The position numbers and the translations under genes were made by a program. A stretch of DNA of 64,000 nucleotides from Aurantimicrobium sp. MWH-Uga1. Lineage in GTDB: Bacteria; Actinomycetota; Actinomycetes; Actinomycetales; Microbacteriaceae. A model generated the notes under the pieces. It was given only the letters and a program-made list of their open reading frames with translations. It ran no database searches and was not told where the DNA came from. Each line of letters starts with the position of its first letter. Within the stretch, counting starts at the first letter, position 1. Below are positions 13,184 through 35,382 of this stretch, piece after piece. Location of the stretch: positions 1,426,001-1,490,000 of the forward strand of contig NZ_CP030929.1 of assembly GCF_003325955.1 (NCBI RefSeq), read 5' to 3'.

Positions 13184-14074
<891 letters not shown>

Positions 14075-14098: not shown

Positions 14099-15262
14099 TT
14101 AGCGGGCAGCGAGTTCTGCGGCCTTGTCGGCGCCGTCATCCATGCTGTCTGCGAGGGTTACGAGGGGGTGGTTAGCCTCGGCGAGAATCCGACGACCCTC
14201 ATCGACGTTGTTGCCGTCAAGGCGAACAACGAGAGGCTTGTTAGCAGCGGAACCGAGGGTTGCCAGTGCCTGGACAATACCGTTGGCTACAGCATCACAG
14301 GCTGTGATACCACCGAAGACGTTGACGAATACGCTCTTGACCTGTGCATCACCGAGGATGACGTCGAGACCAGCGGCCATAACTTCTGCCGATGCTCCAC
14401 CACCGATGTCGAGGAAGTTCGCGGGCTTGACGCCACCGTGGTTTTCACCAGCGTAAGCAACGACGTCCAGGGTGCTCATCACGAGACCTGCGCCGTTACC
14501 GATAATTCCGACTTCACCGTCAAGCTTCACGTAGTTGAGATCTGCAGCCTTTGCCTTAGCTTCGAGTGGATCTGCAGCTGCCTTGTCTTCAAGTGCAGCG
14601 TGGTTTTCGTGACGGAACTCGGCGTTCTCATCGAGCGAGACTTTACCGTCGAGGGCAATGATGTCGCCTTCTTCAGTAAGAACCAGAGGGTTGACCTCAA
14701 CGAGGGTGGCATCTTCGCCGGTGTAGACCTCGTAAAGCTTGACGAAAACAGGAGCAACCTTGTCAACCAGCTCAGCTGGGAACTTGGCTGCAACTGCAAT
14801 GCGCTTGGCTTCAGCAAGGTCGATTCCCTTGATGGGGTTTACTTCGATGCGAGCAAGAGCTTCGGGGCGCTCCACAGCGAGTTGCTCAATCTCCATGCCA
14901 CCTTCGTAAGAGGTGAGGGAGAGGTAGGAGCGGTTTGCACGGTCGAGCAGCACGGAGAAGTAGAACTCTTGTGCAATGCGAGCACCAGCTGCAACCATGA
15001 CGCGCTTGACGACGTGTCCCTTGATGTCGAGTCCAAGAATGGCCTTGGCTGCTTCCTCAGCTTCCTCGGGGGTCTTGGCAACCTTGACGCCACCCGCCTT
15101 ACCGCGGCCACCGACCTTAACCTGAGCTTTGACGACAACTACGCCACTGAGCTTTTCAGCTGCAGCACGTGCTTCAGCAGGGGTGTCGGCGATGATGCCC
15201 GCCAGTACGGGAACGTCATAACTCTCGAACAGGTCCCTGGCTTGGTATTCGTATAAATCCAC
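14099..15262 (-). CDS. sucC: Succinyl-CoA ligase, beta subunit
   Basis: 387 aa from the GTG at 15262, whose product begins [19 protein letters not shown] as in family members of about 388 aa; an ATG at 15316 would add 18 extra residues. ATP-grasp domain: [46 protein letters not shown], then the C-terminal CoA-ligase domain with [28 protein letters not shown] and [13 protein letters not shown]. It lies upstream of sucD in an operon controlled from the 15.3 kb intergenic region, where a strong palindrome sits. Confidence 0.97.
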
Positions 15263-15332
15263 GTGATTCCCAATCCGCATTGAGCGATAAATAATCAGTA
15301 GCGATAGGACCGCCACTGGCGAAAGTTAAAAG

Positions 15333-15350
15333 TAACTTGATATCAAGATA
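15333..15350 (-). promoter_or_regulatory. Candidate TCA-cycle operator upstream of sucC
   Basis: On the minus strand TATCTTGATATCAAGTTA, with a perfect 12-bp palindromic core CTTGATATCAAG at 15336-15347, about 70 bases before the sucC start. The icd promoter (32631-32648) has TATCTTGATATCGAGCTA, identical at 16 of 18 positions. Regulator unknown. Confidence 0.7.
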
Positions 15351-15455
15351 AATTGACCAGTTCGACTTTACCCCTTTTTTCAGCCAAATACACCCCTGAA
15401 CAAGGTTTGGCTCACCTAACTAGATAGCACAGGGACAAACTGCCAAGCTGGTGTT

Positions 15456-16178
15456 ATGGCTGAACCAACTCTTGAACATGGATTTGAACCTCACGACGCT
15501 GCGTCCAACAGCAAACTGAACTGGCTTCGTGCCGGAGTTCTCGGCGCAAACGATGGCATTGTCTCCATTGCTGCACTAGTTGTTGGCGTTGCGGCCGCCA
15601 CCAGCGATCCCGCAGTGATATTCCTTACCGGTATCGCAGCACTTGCAGCCGGAGCTATCTCGATGGCGCTAGGAGAATATGTCTCTGTTTCTAGCCAACG
15701 AGATTCTGAAAAGGCGTGGGTCAATAAAGAACGCCGTGAACTGGAAATGTTTCCCGAGGAAGAACTCGAAGAACTCGTTGCGCTCTATGAAGCCAAGGGA
15801 CTCAAACCAGAAACTGCTCGTCAGGTTGCTGTTGAGATGACCGAGGTGGATGCACTCAAGACTCACCTCGATGTTGAACTAGGTATTGACCAGGACGAGC
15901 TGACCAACCCACTGCACGCAGCTATATCTTCTGCAATAGCTTTCACCGTAGGGGCGCTGCTTCCCCTTTTGGCAGTCTTACTCACGCCAGAACCGTTCAA
16001 AATTATCGCCACTGTGGCTGCATCGCTGTTAGCGCTGGCACTGACCGGGGGAATCGGTGCCTACATCGGTGGCGCGCCTGTTCCTCGTGCAATCTTGCGT
16101 GTGACCATTGGTGGAGCACTGGCTCTGGCTGTGACCTACTTCATTGGTTCACTGCTCGGCGGGGGCGCAGCCATCTAA
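15456..16178 (+). CDS. VIT1/CCC1-family metal transporter
   Basis: 240 aa. It opens with LNWLRAGVLGANDGIVSIAALVVGVAAA, the first-helix signature of the VIT1/CCC1 family. TM2 is followed by AISMALGEYVSVSSQRDSEKA, then an acidic, Glu-rich cytoplasmic loop (PEEELEELVALYEAKGL) typical of the metal-binding domain. Three more helices make five in all. Eukaryotic and bacterial members move Fe2+ or Mn2+ out of the cytoplasm in exchange for protons. Transcribed divergently from sucC. Substrate inferred from family. Confidence 0.88.
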   Translation: MAEPTLEHGFEPHDAASNSKLNWLRAGVLGANDGIVSIAALVVGVAAATSDPAVIFLTGIAALAAGAISMALGEYVSVSSQRDSEKAWVNKERRELEMFPEEELEELVALYEAKGLKPETARQVAVEMTEVDALKTHLDVELGIDQDELTNPLHAAISSAIAFTVGALLPLLAVLLTPEPFKIIATVAASLLALALTGGIGAYIGGAPVPRAILRVTIGGALALAVTYFIGSLLGGGAAI

Positions 16179-30348: not shown

Positions 30349-32574
30349 CTAGTTGATCGAATCGATGACGTTGTTCAATGTTTCAGACGGACGCATCACC
30401 TGGTCAACCAGCTCAGTCTTGGGGCGGTAGTAGCCACCAATATTGACGGGCTTACCCTGAACAGCAATGAGTTCGCCAACAATCTGCTCTTCGTGTGCAG
30501 CGAGTGCTTCAGCTACGGGAGCGAAGGTGGCAGCCAAAGCTGCATCCTGTGACTGCTTGGCCAATTCCTGAGCCCAGTAGAGTCCGAGGTAGTAATGGCT
30601 TCCACGGTTATCGATGGTGCCCACCTTGCGTCCAGGTGAACGGTCTTCTTCAAGGAAGGTTCCGGTTGCGCGGTCGAGCGTGTCAGCAAGTACCTTGGCC
30701 TGAGTATTTCCGGTGGTGTCAGCTAAGTGCTCAAGTGATGCCGCGAGCGCAAAGAATTCACCCAGGGAGTCCCAACGAAGGAAGTCTTCTTCGAGCAGCT
30801 GCTGAACGTGCTTGGGGGCAGAACCACCAGCACCTGTTTCGAACAGTCCACCACCGGCAAGCAGAGGAACAATCGACAACATCTTGGCGCTTGTTCCCAC
30901 TTCAAGAATGGGGAAGAGATCGGTGAGGTAGTCGCGCAGAACGTTACCGGTTACCGAGATGGTGTCTTCGCCCTTGCGAATGCGAGCAAGTGAATACTTG
31001 GTCGCATCCGCTGGAGCCATAATCTCGATGGTCAAACCAGTGGTGTCGTGATCGGCGAGGTAGGTCGTGACCTTCTTGATGATCTGAGCGTCATGTGCAC
31101 GTTTCTCATCCAGCCAGAACACGGCGGGTACACCTGTTGCACGAGCTCGGCTGACAGCTAGCTTGACCCAGTCACGAACGGGAATGTCTTTGGTCTGGGT
31201 TGCGCGCCAAATGTCTCCCTTGGCAACGTCGTGAGAGATGAGTACCTCTCCTGCGGAGTTGATGATCTCGACACGTCCTGGTGCAGCAATCTCGAAAGTC
31301 TTGTCGTGGCTTCCATACTCTTCAGCTGCCTGAGCCATCAATCCCACGTTGGGAACGGTACCGATAGTGGCAGGGTCGAGTGGGCCGTTGGCAATGACGT
31401 CTTCAATCGTCGCCTGGTACACCCCAGCGTAGGAGGAGTCAGGAATGACGGCAATGGTGTCGTCTTCTCCACCATCAACACCCCACAACTTTCCACCATT
31501 ACGCACCAATGCCGGCATAGATGCGTCCACGATGACATCGGAAGGAACATGAAGGTTAGTGATTCCCTTATCGCTGTTGGTATAGCTCAGGCGTGGACCT
31601 GCAGCAATGGCTGCCGCGAACTCTGCAGCAATTGCGTCGCCGCCTGCAACATCATTGAGTCCAGCCAGGATTGCGCCAAGACCGTCATTAGCAGTCAAAC
31701 CTGCAGCCTCAAGCTGTGCTCCATGCTTGTCAAAAACACCAGAGAAGAATGCTTTCACGACGTGGCAAAACAAGATGGGGTCGGACACCTTCATCATGGT
31801 TGCCTTGAGGTGCACGGAATACAGAACGTTGTCTTTCTTGGCTTGTTCAAGAGTTTCAGCCAGAAATTCATCAAGTGCTGCCACGGACATAAATGTGGCG
31901 TCAACGATTTCACCCTCAAGAACTTTAAGACCCGACTTCAAGACTGTCTCGGTGCCGTCAGTTGCGATGTGACGAATGGTAAGTGTGTCCGCTGCTGGCA
32001 GCACGACTGACTTTTCGTTCGAGAAGAAGTCATCGTGACCCATGGTTGCCACACGTGTTTTTGATCCTGCCGCGAAAGGCTTGTTCACATGAGGGTGCTT
32101 GCGGGCGTATGCCTTCACTGACATGGGCGCACGGCGGTCGCTGTTACCTTCACGAAGGACAGGGTTTACAGCACTTCCTTTGATGCGGTCGTAGCGTGCA
32201 CGTGCATCTTTTTCCGCGTCCGTGCTGGGCTCGTCTGGATAGTCAGGAACATCACATCCTGCTGCCTGAAGCTCAGCGATAGCTGCCTTAAGTTGAGGAA
32301 TGGAAGCAGAGATGTTGGGAAGCTTGATGATGTTGGCTTCTGGAGTCTTTGCCAATTCACCTAGTTCTTTCAGTGCGTCTGCAACTTGTTGATCTGCGCT
32401 GAGTCGCTCAGGGAATGCAGAGAGAATGCGTCCGGCAAGTGAGATATCGCGGGTCTCGATGGATACTCCCGCAGCTTTGGCATATGCCTGAACGATGGGA
32501 AGGAACGATGCAGTCGCCAGCGCGGGTGCTTCGTCAGTGTAGGTGTAGACAATGGTCGATTCGTTCACGTACAT
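30349..32574 (-). CDS. icd: Monomeric NADP-dependent isocitrate dehydrogenase
   Basis: 741 aa, the size of the monomeric type II enzyme. Recognisable family blocks: [96 protein letters not shown] and [24 protein letters not shown]. It oxidises isocitrate to 2-oxoglutarate and supplies NADPH. It stands alone between its own promoter region and terminator. Its promoter contains an 18-bp palindrome nearly identical to one upstream of sucCD. Confidence 0.97.
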
Positions 32575-32630: not shown

Positions 32631-32648
32631 TATCTTGATATCGAGCTA
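32631..32648 (+). promoter_or_regulatory. Candidate TCA-cycle operator upstream of icd
   Basis: TATCTTGATATCGAGCTA, 57 bases before the icd start. Sixteen of 18 bases equal the sucCD site (minus strand of 15333-15350). Core CTTGATATCGAG is a near-perfect palindrome. Confidence 0.7.
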
Positions 32649-32722: not shown

Positions 32723-34825
32723 TTAGCCAAATTTGGGAGCCGTGAGTTTCTTACGTGGCCACCAGAACTTGTCCCCTGTCATAAACGCCAGTGCTGGAAC
32801 AATCACTGTTCGAACAAGGAGGGTGTCCAACAGAACACCAATACCGACGATGATGCCGATCTGGTAGAGAGCAATCAGAGGCAAGACACCCAGAACGGCG
32901 AAAACCGCTGCGAGCAAAATACCCGCGCTGGTAATCACACCACCGGTTGTTGCTAGGGCACGAATCATGCCCTCCTTTGTACCAAAGTGCACCGCTTCTT
33001 CTTGGGCTCTAGCAACAAGGAAGATGTTGTAATCAACACCCAAAGCAACCAAGAACAAGAAGGAGAAGAGGAACACGCTCAGATCAAGAGCGGGGATTCC
33101 CAACACGTTGGTGAACAACAGCCATGCTGCTCCCTGCGCTGCGAAGAAGGATGCCACAACTGTCAGCAGCAACAGGATTGGCGCTACTAAAGCCCTCAAT
33201 AAGAAGACTAGAACGCCGAATACCAGCAGCAGGATGAGTGGAATCACAATCATCTGGTCGTGGGAATAAGCAGTGCGAACATCGAGTTGTTCAGCATCGA
33301 GTCCACCCACGAGTGCATCCGCGCCATCAACGGTTGCCAACTCAGTGCGCAGGTCCTTGATGGACTGATAGGCCTCTTCAGAGCCTGGTTCGCCATCCAA
33401 AATGACATCGATGCGGGCTACGGAATCGTTCTGTGAGACTTCAGTTGCCGAAGCAACTCCGCTCACAGTTTCTGCGGCTGCAATTGCTTGGTCAGCGCTG
33501 TCTTTGTTCACAATGACGATCGTGGGGGTTGTTGCCCCGGCAGGGAATGCTTCGGCAAGAACTTCCTGACCATAAACCGCCTCAGGCTTAACTCGGAACT
33601 GCTCGGTGCTGGAAAGACCGACCTTAATTCCGGTTGCCCCCAGTGCGAGGGCAAAAAGGATTCCAAATCCAACGATGGAGATGATCACTGGACGCTTAGC
33701 AACACCACGTCCGAGCTTGCCCCACACTCCGTTAAGTGATTTGTTTTCTGCGCCAAGTTTAGGAATGAACGGCCAGAAGAGTCCGCGACCGAACACAACC
33801 AGCGATGCTGGGAGGAACACTAGTGCGGCGATCATCGCAATCACGATACCTGTGGCACAGACAAGACCGAGTGCACGGTTTCCGCCAAGCTCTGCGAGGG
33901 TGAGGGTCAGTAGAGCCAAGGTCACGGTTGAACCCGAGGCGATAATTGCGGGGCCTGCACCGCGCAACGCAGCAGCCATCGCAACGTGGCGATCTTCGTT
34001 GCGGAGAAGTTCTTCACGGTATCTGGCAATCAGAAGCAACGCATAGTTCGTTCCCGCACCAAACACAAGCACCGACAAGATACCTGTGACGGAACCATCA
34101 GGAACAATTCCAAAAGCGGTTGCAACATTGCGACCAACCTGGCCGGCAACACCGTCAGCAGTTCCCACAACCAAAAGCGGGACAATCCACAGAACTGGTG
34201 AGCGATACGTCACAATCAGCAGGACCGCGACAACAATCACGGTGAAGAGCAACAAGGTGAAGTCTGCGCCAGCGAATACACCGACGAGGTCTGCCTGGAA
34301 TCCTTCAGGACCAGTGACATAGGTGGTGATTCCGCTGGGTAATCCCTCCTGGGCTGTGGCGCGAATTTCTTTGATGCGCTCCGCAACAACCTCAGTCTCA
34401 TCGCTCTTTTCCAAAGGGATGGTTACAACTGCGGTCGTGTTGTCCTCGGAAACAACGGCTGGAGGAACGAAAGGCTCGCCGTTAACTTCTGCGTTAGTAA
34501 ATTCTGTGAAGTTTTCGTTCACACCACCGGTGGGTAGTTGAACGATGGGGTTGAAGCTCCCCTGCAACCACTCAAGTTGAGAATCGCTAAATGTGCCGTC
34601 TGATTTGTAGACAACAACAGCAGCTGTCGAATCAGCCCCAGGCAAATCTTTCAGGGCTTCGTTGACCAAAGCTGTTTCACTATCGGAGGGAAGACCATTG
34701 GTGGGGTTTGTTTCAGTCGTCGCCGCACGGAATGGACCTAGCGCTAATGCAGCCAGGATGAATCCAACAACGATGGTGGCCCAGGCAGTTTTCCTACCCG
34801 TGATGAATGAGATGAGACGATTCAT
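32723..34825 (-). CDS. MMPL/RND-family exporter
   Basis: 700 aa with twelve helices in two halves and two large extracytoplasmic loops (about residues 35-180 and 400-500). The proton-relay helices carry FGAGTNYALLLIARYREEL (first half) and ALGVDYNIFLVARAQEE (second half), the MMPL signature D-Y-N/A pattern; the first copy has T-N-Y in place of D-Y. Members export lipids, siderophores or drugs. It faces a divergent MarR regulator over a 95-base intergenic region, the usual layout for an inducible efflux pump. Confidence 0.93.
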   Translation of the reverse strand: MNRLISFITGRKTAWATIVVGFILAALALGPFRAATTETNPTNGLPSDSETALVNEALKDLPGADSTAAVVVYKSDGTFSDSQLEWLQGSFNPIVQLPTGGVNENFTEFTNAEVNGEPFVPPAVVSEDNTTAVVTIPLEKSDETEVVAERIKEIRATAQEGLPSGITTYVTGPEGFQADLVGVFAGADFTLLLFTVIVVAVLLIVTYRSPVLWIVPLLVVGTADGVAGQVGRNVATAFGIVPDGSVTGILSVLVFGAGTNYALLLIARYREELLRNEDRHVAMAAALRGAGPAIIASGSTVTLALLTLTLAELGGNRALGLVCATGIVIAMIAALVFLPASLVVFGRGLFWPFIPKLGAENKSLNGVWGKLGRGVAKRPVIISIVGFGILFALALGATGIKVGLSSTEQFRVKPEAVYGQEVLAEAFPAGATTPTIVIVNKDSADQAIAAAETVSGVASATEVSQNDSVARIDVILDGEPGSEEAYQSIKDLRTELATVDGADALVGGLDAEQLDVRTAYSHDQMIVIPLILLLVFGVLVFLLRALVAPILLLLTVVASFFAAQGAAWLLFTNVLGIPALDLSVFLFSFLFLVALGVDYNIFLVARAQEEAVHFGTKEGMIRALATTGGVITSAGILLAAVFAVLGVLPLIALYQIGIIVGIGVLLDTLLVRTVIVPALAFMTGDKFWWPRKKLTAPKFG

Positions 34826-34881
34826 GAATTTCCTTGAGTTGTGTCAACTTTCGAATTACTTGACATAAATTATCAACTTAA

Positions 34882-34894
34882 TTCGACAGTCGAA
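34882..34894. promoter_or_regulatory. Candidate MarR operator
   Basis: TTCGAC-A-GTCGAA, a perfect inverted repeat in the intergenic region shared by the MMPL and marR genes. TTCGAC could be the -35 of marR, with TAAAAT at 34906-34911 as -10 (18-base spacer), so binding would block autologous transcription. A second inverted repeat, AGTTG-TGT-CAACT, is at 34837-34849 near the MMPL start. Confidence 0.55.
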
Positions 34895-34920
34895 CTATTC
34901 GATAGCTAAAATATATAACA

Positions 34921-35382
34921 ATGAGTGAACAAAGCCAAACAGAACCAGCCATGTACGGCCACCGCGCCACAAGGCTGCTTCGCTCTGTCATTCAAGAGAG
35001 CGAAGAATACTCAAAAACAGTTGGCCAACATCTGATGGTCAATCAGACCGATCTCCAAGCTATGACACATCTGATTGAACATGGGCCGATGTCTGCAGGA
35101 GATCTTGCTAAGTCTGTCGGGCTGAGCCCCGCTGCGGGGACCACCATGATTGACAGACTTGTGGATGTTGGTCACGTTTCCCGTCAATCACATCCGACAG
35201 ACCGAAGAGCTGTTGTGGTCGTTCCCAACCCGCAATCGGTTGCAACCGCCTGGCAAAGAATCATGCCTTTGATTAGCGCCAGCGAATCTATCCTTGACGA
35301 CATGAACGAAGAGGAGCGAGCTGCAGTGGAAAAGTATCTTGCCCTGATGCTGACGGCGTATAAAGCAGAAGCTGAAAAGTAG
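34921..35382 (+). CDS. MarR-family transcriptional regulator
   Basis: 153 aa. Winged helix in the centre: MTHLIEHGPMSAGDLAKSVGLSPAAGTTMIDRLVDVGHVSRQSHPTDRRAVVVVPNPQS, including the DxR wing typical of MarR. Flanking helices make the dimer interface. It most likely represses the divergent MMPL exporter. No ribosome-binding site precedes the ATG; a TAAAAT box 9 bases upstream suggests a leaderless or very short leader. Confidence 0.92.
   Translation: MSEQSQTEPAMYGHRATRLLRSVIQESEEYSKTVGQHLMVNQTDLQAMTHLIEHGPMSAGDLAKSVGLSPAAGTTMIDRLVDVGHVSRQSHPTDRRAVVVVPNPQSVATAWQRIMPLISASESILDDMNEEERAAVEKYLALMLTAYKAEAEK

Follow-up and report, generated by a model that had tools for sequence, protein, structure and literature searches.

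The window, which is the whole stretch of 64,000 nucleotides analyzed in the present study, corresponds to C1:1426001-1490000 of a single-contig genome of 1.61 Mb and contains two loci for enzymes of the TCA cycle (Table 1). At the first of these, sucD stands 3' of sucC, both on the minus strand, and together they encode the two subunits of succinate-CoA ligase. The second carries icd, the gene for a monomeric isocitrate dehydrogenase. The identities originally given to sucC, sucD, and icd hold, with all three products scoring above the respective NCBIfam cut-offs. The start codons were read as GTG at 15262 for sucC and GTG at 32568 for icd, and the mechanically derived open reading frames start at 15316 and 32574, respectively.

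An 18-bp palindrome is present in front of each of sucC and icd. The original prediction described these two copies as a shared element, and its coordinates and strands were right: the copies are identical at 16 of 18 positions (two mismatches). It also held that no third copy was visible, and a scan of the window at up to three mismatches returned these two matches only. The view that a chance match of this quality is unlikely was borne out by dinucleotide shuffles, from which 0.03 matches were expected in the window.

Table 1. Genes and palindromic sites considered in the present study (window numbering unless C1 is given, which denotes the genome).
Feature	Position	Strand	Remarks
sucC, ADP-forming succinate-CoA ligase subunit beta	14099..15262	-	NCBIfam NF001913, 524.6 bits (cut-off 370)
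sucD, succinate-CoA ligase subunit alpha	13184..14071	-	NCBIfam NF004230, 455.3 bits (cut-off 336)
sucCD-promoter palindrome, putative TamR box, TATCTTGATATCAAGTTA	15333..15350	-	70 bp to sucC start codon
VIT1-family (PF01988) gene	15456-16178	+	Divergent from sucC
icd, monomeric NADP-dependent isocitrate dehydrogenase	30349..32568	-	NCBIfam TIGR00178, 1199.2 bits (cut-off 950)
icd-promoter palindrome, putative TamR box, TATCTTGATATCGAGCTA	32631..32648	+ (icd itself on -)	62 bp to icd start codon
acn-promoter palindrome	C1:893977-893994		66 bp to acn start as read
iclR-promoter palindrome	C1:1172473		64 bp to IclR-gene start as read
IclR-family regulator gene carrying the fourth site	C1:1171647-1172408	-	
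TamR-type MarR-family protein, 170 aa (candidate regulator)	C1:329612-330121	-	Comparative data

Palindromic sites in the genome and genus

The perfect palindrome was matched at four places in the whole genome when up to three mismatches were allowed, and its reversed control at none. Using the degenerate consensus TATCTYGAYRTCRAGATA, we found four sites at 0-1 mismatch, none at two mismatches, and three at three mismatches; the last three (C1:671352, C1:1472836, and C1:1472914) are at the level of the control, with reversed TATCTYGAYRTCRAGATA giving four genome matches at up to three mismatches. Under a first-order Markov model derived from the window, 0.005 genome sites at 0-1 mismatch were expected, versus the four that were found.

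All four sites are upstream of start codons as read, which was the outcome of the genome scan that the original prediction had proposed. The targets are sucCD, icd, acn, and the gene for an IclR-family regulator, three of which are TCA genes, and the spacing from the site to the start codon is near-constant at 62-70 bp. Regarding the further TCA genes at which copies had been anticipated, the expectation was correct for acn, but not for gltA, mdh, sdh, or odhA, which lack a site in this genome: the whole-genome scan with TATCTYGAYRTCRAGATA returned nothing at up to two mismatches beyond the four copies.

The acn product was identified as AcnA (TIGR01341, 1304.2 bits, cut-off 945). The longest mechanical open reading frame of acn would span its palindrome, and we favor a start placed 3' of the palindrome, as indicated by an RBS-like GGAGGA and by the pattern of conservation and coding. 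A simple scan of the target strand found no sigma-70 promoter at the sucC or icd site; an overlap between the palindrome and promoter would be expected under the repression model described below.

All four sites are kept in 8/8 genomes of the genus, and the loss of the motif in close relatives, which had been raised as a potential objection, was not seen. Across these eight genomes, no position varies in the sucC or iclR site, one varies in the acn site, and two vary in the icd site, and each copy of the latter differs from that in the window by 0-1 base change. The block downstream of the sucC site is also invariant in all eight genomes, and the flanks outside of such short blocks vary. In the genus alignment, ACTTT follows the palindrome in 24/24 rows of the acn, sucC, and icd sites and in 0/8 of the iclR site.

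The IclR-family gene comes after a gene encoding a protein with Ala_racemase_N and D-ser_dehydrat domains. This upstream PLP enzyme, with its D-serine dehydratase-type domains, scored below the cut-off for the 3-hydroxyaspartate aldolase BhcC, and the two genes (C1:1171647-1173588; loci L002 and L018) are positioned 3' of RNase III- and Fpg-like genes.

A TamR-type candidate regulator and its co-occurrence with the palindrome

The regulator had been placed outside the window, and the best candidate in the genome is indeed located elsewhere, namely, a TamR-type MarR-family protein of 170 aa (Table 1). A search of the genome with the MarR_2 profile gave 12 matches, seven of which were above the cut-off; this protein was among the seven, and it exceeded the cut-offs of both Pfam MarR_2 and MarR. 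It resembles the MarR proteins that adjoin the palindrome in other genomes and shares 59-61% identity with the TamR proteins of three Streptomyces-like genomes; for comparison, the identity was 31-52% for second copies in the 60-genome search described below and 20% for the MarR protein encoded in the window. The motif SGTMTNR, which is at the start of a predicted helix (86-98), was invariant in 18/18 aligned rows. The predicted model of the protein (pLDDT 89.9) contained an extra N-terminal helix (7-18) before the winged-helix core and was nearest to PecS and MftR, both of which have been solved with operator DNA. In a tree of TamR and its paralogues with a poor outgroup, the deep branches did not group the 170-aa regulator with tam-linked TamR apart from the paralogues.

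The presence of the regulator (E ≤1e-15) and palindrome (up to three mismatches to the perfect form) was compared across 60 genomes, comprising the present genome and 59 relatives. Both were present in 47 and neither in 11, with one genome having the site only (G022) and one the regulator only (G027; Fisher p = 4e-10). At 0-1 mismatch to the degenerate form, a cut that was selected after the first results and is, thus, given together with the first, the respective numbers were 47, 12, 0, and 1 (G043). Among 393 genomes of the class, for which the regulator cut of E 1e-20 was fixed before the search, 264 had both, 100 neither, five the site only, and 24 the regulator only (p = 6e-63); these p values overstate independence because the genomes share ancestry, and the two sets partly overlap. 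The reversed control pattern was matched in 29/393 class genomes. The regulators in the 24 regulator-only genomes matched more weakly, with E values of 1.7e-42 at best, and are possibly paralogues.

In the family beyond the genus, a TamR-type gene was detected in 23/29 genomes, representing 23 other genera, and these 23 genomes carried 44 sites at 0-1 mismatch versus none in the six genomes without the regulator. This tally excludes sites with exactly two mismatches, of which there were 25 in the regulator-bearing genomes and four in the regulator-less genomes, as well as a dropped site with three mismatches in G006. The 44 sites were assigned to acn (22), icd (14), sdhC (4), MmgE/PrpD (2), sucC (1), and an SSF (sodium:solute) symporter (1). 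An acn site was present in 22 of the 23 regulator-bearing genera; G027 has the regulator and no 0-1 mismatch site at acn. Three of the 14 icd sites precede the gene for the monomeric isozyme and 11 that for the dimeric isozyme, with one of each being checked against NCBIfam. The remaining assignments are looser: three of the four sdh sites, which are in four different genera, also stand before a divergent mannose-1-phosphate guanylyltransferase-like gene (one by Pfam, two by eye), the symporter site is approximately 450 bp from the symporter start, and one of the PrpD sites lies partly within the end of a TetR-like ORF.

The neighbors of the sites were covered for the genus, for the family at 0-1 mismatch, and for some of the order- and class-level genomes. 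Among genomes that belong to the order and not to the family, a site precedes acn in most of the loci inspected, and other sites were found in tam-tamR regions (L029 and L144), next to tam (L026 and L028), tamR (L143), and a PrpD gene (L024), and in the interval separating an MFS-like gene from a nucleoside hydrolase gene (L020). TamR-type boxes were noted before MmgE/PrpD-family genes in three genera (L024, L101, and L114), and MmgE/PrpD may be a further target connected with 2-methylcitrate or aconitate chemistry.

Regarding tamR loci in records that carry an organism name, we used the best 80 of 515 candidates, 79 of which are titled Streptomyces and one "Actinobacteria bacterium". Among these best 80 loci, tam is divergent from tamR within 500 bp in 79, the exception (L232) being near a contig end, and a box at up to two mismatches lies within 300 bp upstream of tamR in 75. 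The best box had no mismatches in seven, one in 41, two in 27, three in four, and four in one, and the reversed control had 6-8 mismatches at the same loci. TamR of G216, a genome in the class of the present one, is up to 97% identical to that of named Streptomyces records, which places the present genome in the same class as Streptomyces; its family is tentatively Microbacteriaceae. In tam-linked genomes, the box is located between tamR and tam. The Tam neighbors match trans-aconitate 2-methyltransferase, with 3/4 of those tested being above the cut-off.

The gene for the 170-aa regulator is flanked by ABC-F-like and glmU-like genes as read, and a search of the genome for tam, performed without a positive control, found no match. 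The best match to the box at the regulator's own locus had five mismatches, so the self-regulation that is usual for TamR appears to be missing. The other 28 fetched family-level regulator loci (L049-L076) yielded one box at two mismatches (L068) and none better. Since a tam neighbor was not found, we classify the present system only as a TamR-type regulator with its regulon, and not as a canonical tam-tamR system.

Assignment of the palindrome

Considering the co-occurrence and the presence of the same palindrome in tam-tamR promoters, we regard it as highly probable that the palindrome is the operator of the TamR-type MarR-family regulator, which is encoded outside the window in the same genome. 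The proposal that a shared operator defines a TCA-cycle regulon is, thus, supported, with three of the four genome sites (acn, icd, and sucCD) being before TCA genes.

The strongest of the alternatives is that the palindrome is recognized by a different regulator, such as another MarR protein of the PecS/MhqR-like kind, and that the TamR-type protein only accompanies the palindrome across genomes. The 14/14 fetched loci of lower-scoring regulator copies, which showed no box at up to two mismatches, argue against this, as do the boxes in tam-tamR promoters of Streptomyces and elsewhere. The MarR protein encoded beside icd in the window (34921-35382) is not a suitable binder either because its distribution does not track the site: it was found in only 12/60 genomes and is absent from five of the eight genus genomes, all of which retain the four sites. 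TamR-type binding in the present genome is itself a prediction, other MarR proteins are known to have palindromes of a similar general shape, and, in L027, a perfect box adjoins a more distantly related MarR gene and an EamA-like exporter gene; on this basis, we allow the alternative a small probability.

A slightly smaller probability is given to the IclR-family regulator as the binder, acting on its own gene and on the three TCA operons. Having a site in the promoter of its own gene is characteristic of a self-regulator, and both this gene and its site are kept in 8/8 genus genomes; however, relatives of this protein (E ≤1e-30) were found in 26/60 genomes versus the palindrome in 48/60, and the overlap was poor, with many site-bearing genomes having no IclR relative and four siteless genomes (G023, G025, G041, and G059) having one. 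Furthermore, among the sites for which neighbors were inspected, none outside the genus was at an IclR gene. The IclR-family regulator was, therefore, rejected as the binder because its distribution does not follow that of the site.

That the match is due to chance, or to a structural or recombination element with no regulatory role, may be suggested by the two copies visible in the window, but is negligible in view of the four genome sites found versus 0.005 expected, their near-constant distance from start codons, and their conservation in the genus and presence across the class.

Possible function of the TamR-type regulon

To our knowledge, the control of the TCA cycle has been little described outside Corynebacterium, Mycobacterium, and Streptomyces. 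In Corynebacterium, acn and TCA genes are likewise targets of AcnR, RipA, and GlxR, whose protein families and operators differ from those of the TamR type. The TamR regulon of Streptomyces coelicolor was reportedly described by Huang and Grove in 2013 and by Huang and colleagues in 2015, and its targets include mdh, idh (icd), and aceB1. The icd box in the present genome corresponds to one of these targets, whereas mdh and aceB1 have no site at up to two mismatches here. Other points of difference from S. coelicolor are that no tam was found, that the regulator gene has no box, and that the targets include sucCD and the IclR-family regulator. The two systems are alike in having a regulator that appears to be orthologous, as judged from its identity to Streptomyces-like TamR, and in the palindrome itself, which is shared with named Streptomyces tam-tamR promoters. 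They are also alike in acn, which carries a box in the present genome: according to a review, S. coelicolor TamR represses TCA-linked genes, aconitase included, and its binding to DNA is weakened by citrate and trans-aconitate (PMC5487221). Streptomyces TamR responds to citrate and not to urate (PMC6391409). The 170-aa protein differs from the urate-responsive MarR group, being 38-46% identical to PecS and MftR and 28-31% identical to HucR. In the titles and opening lines of abstracts in the open-licence literature, we found no description of TamR regulation outside Streptomyces.

By analogy with S. coelicolor TamR, we infer that the 170-aa protein binds the palindrome and acts as a repressor and that its ligand would be citrate or aconitate. 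In the mechanism that we propose, a dimer of the regulator would occupy the 18-bp palindrome, at 62-70 bp 5' of the start codons, and hold down the transcription of acn, icd, sucCD, and the IclR-family gene. As levels of citrate or an aconitate isomer rise, for example, on damage to the iron-sulfur cluster of aconitase, the regulator would release the DNA, with the oxidative TCA limb being raised as a unit.

The comparison of sequences provides good support for regarding this as a known regulatory system that has been rewired, and not as a new kind. On balance, we also lean toward the broader view that TamR is a class-wide actinobacterial gauge of citrate or aconitate for the oxidative TCA limb, and not a trans-aconitate speciality of Streptomyces. 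Its operator would have been kept or regained before acn, two types of icd, sucCD, and sdh, and, in the present small-genome genus, tam and self-regulation would have been lost, with a cascade running via the IclR-family regulator. The 18-bp operator and its candidate regulator, which were found together in 264/393 class genomes, would provide a testable rule for the tuning of aconitase and later steps in many actinobacteria as well as a set of citrate-responsive promoters for use in engineering. The presence of sites at two very different isocitrate dehydrogenases would demonstrate selection on the metabolic step and not on the gene.

Several observations were made at neighboring loci. In L027 (G045), the perfect palindrome at 1501-1518 is not at a TCA gene, and the MarR protein encoded beside it is 36% identical to the 170-aa regulator, which suggests that this palindrome may also be recognized by a related branch. 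The EamA-like exporter gene, identified by eye, is on the other side of this box, and the locus shows a PecS-PecM-like arrangement with a TamR-type box; the PecS gene is divergent from pecM (PMC6391409).

The sucC-VIT neighborhood of the window is kept in 8/8 genus loci. Before the VIT-family gene, at 15403-15417, we noted AGGTTTGGCTCACCT. This sequence resembles a DtxR/IdeR iron box, and the loose pattern was matched equally often in 12/100 shuffles.

At the other locus, an MMPL-like transporter gene, which scored below the NCBIfam cut-off, and a divergent MarR gene adjoin icd (32723-35382). Since this MarR gene is present in only 3/8 genus genomes, the two may form a local export pair.
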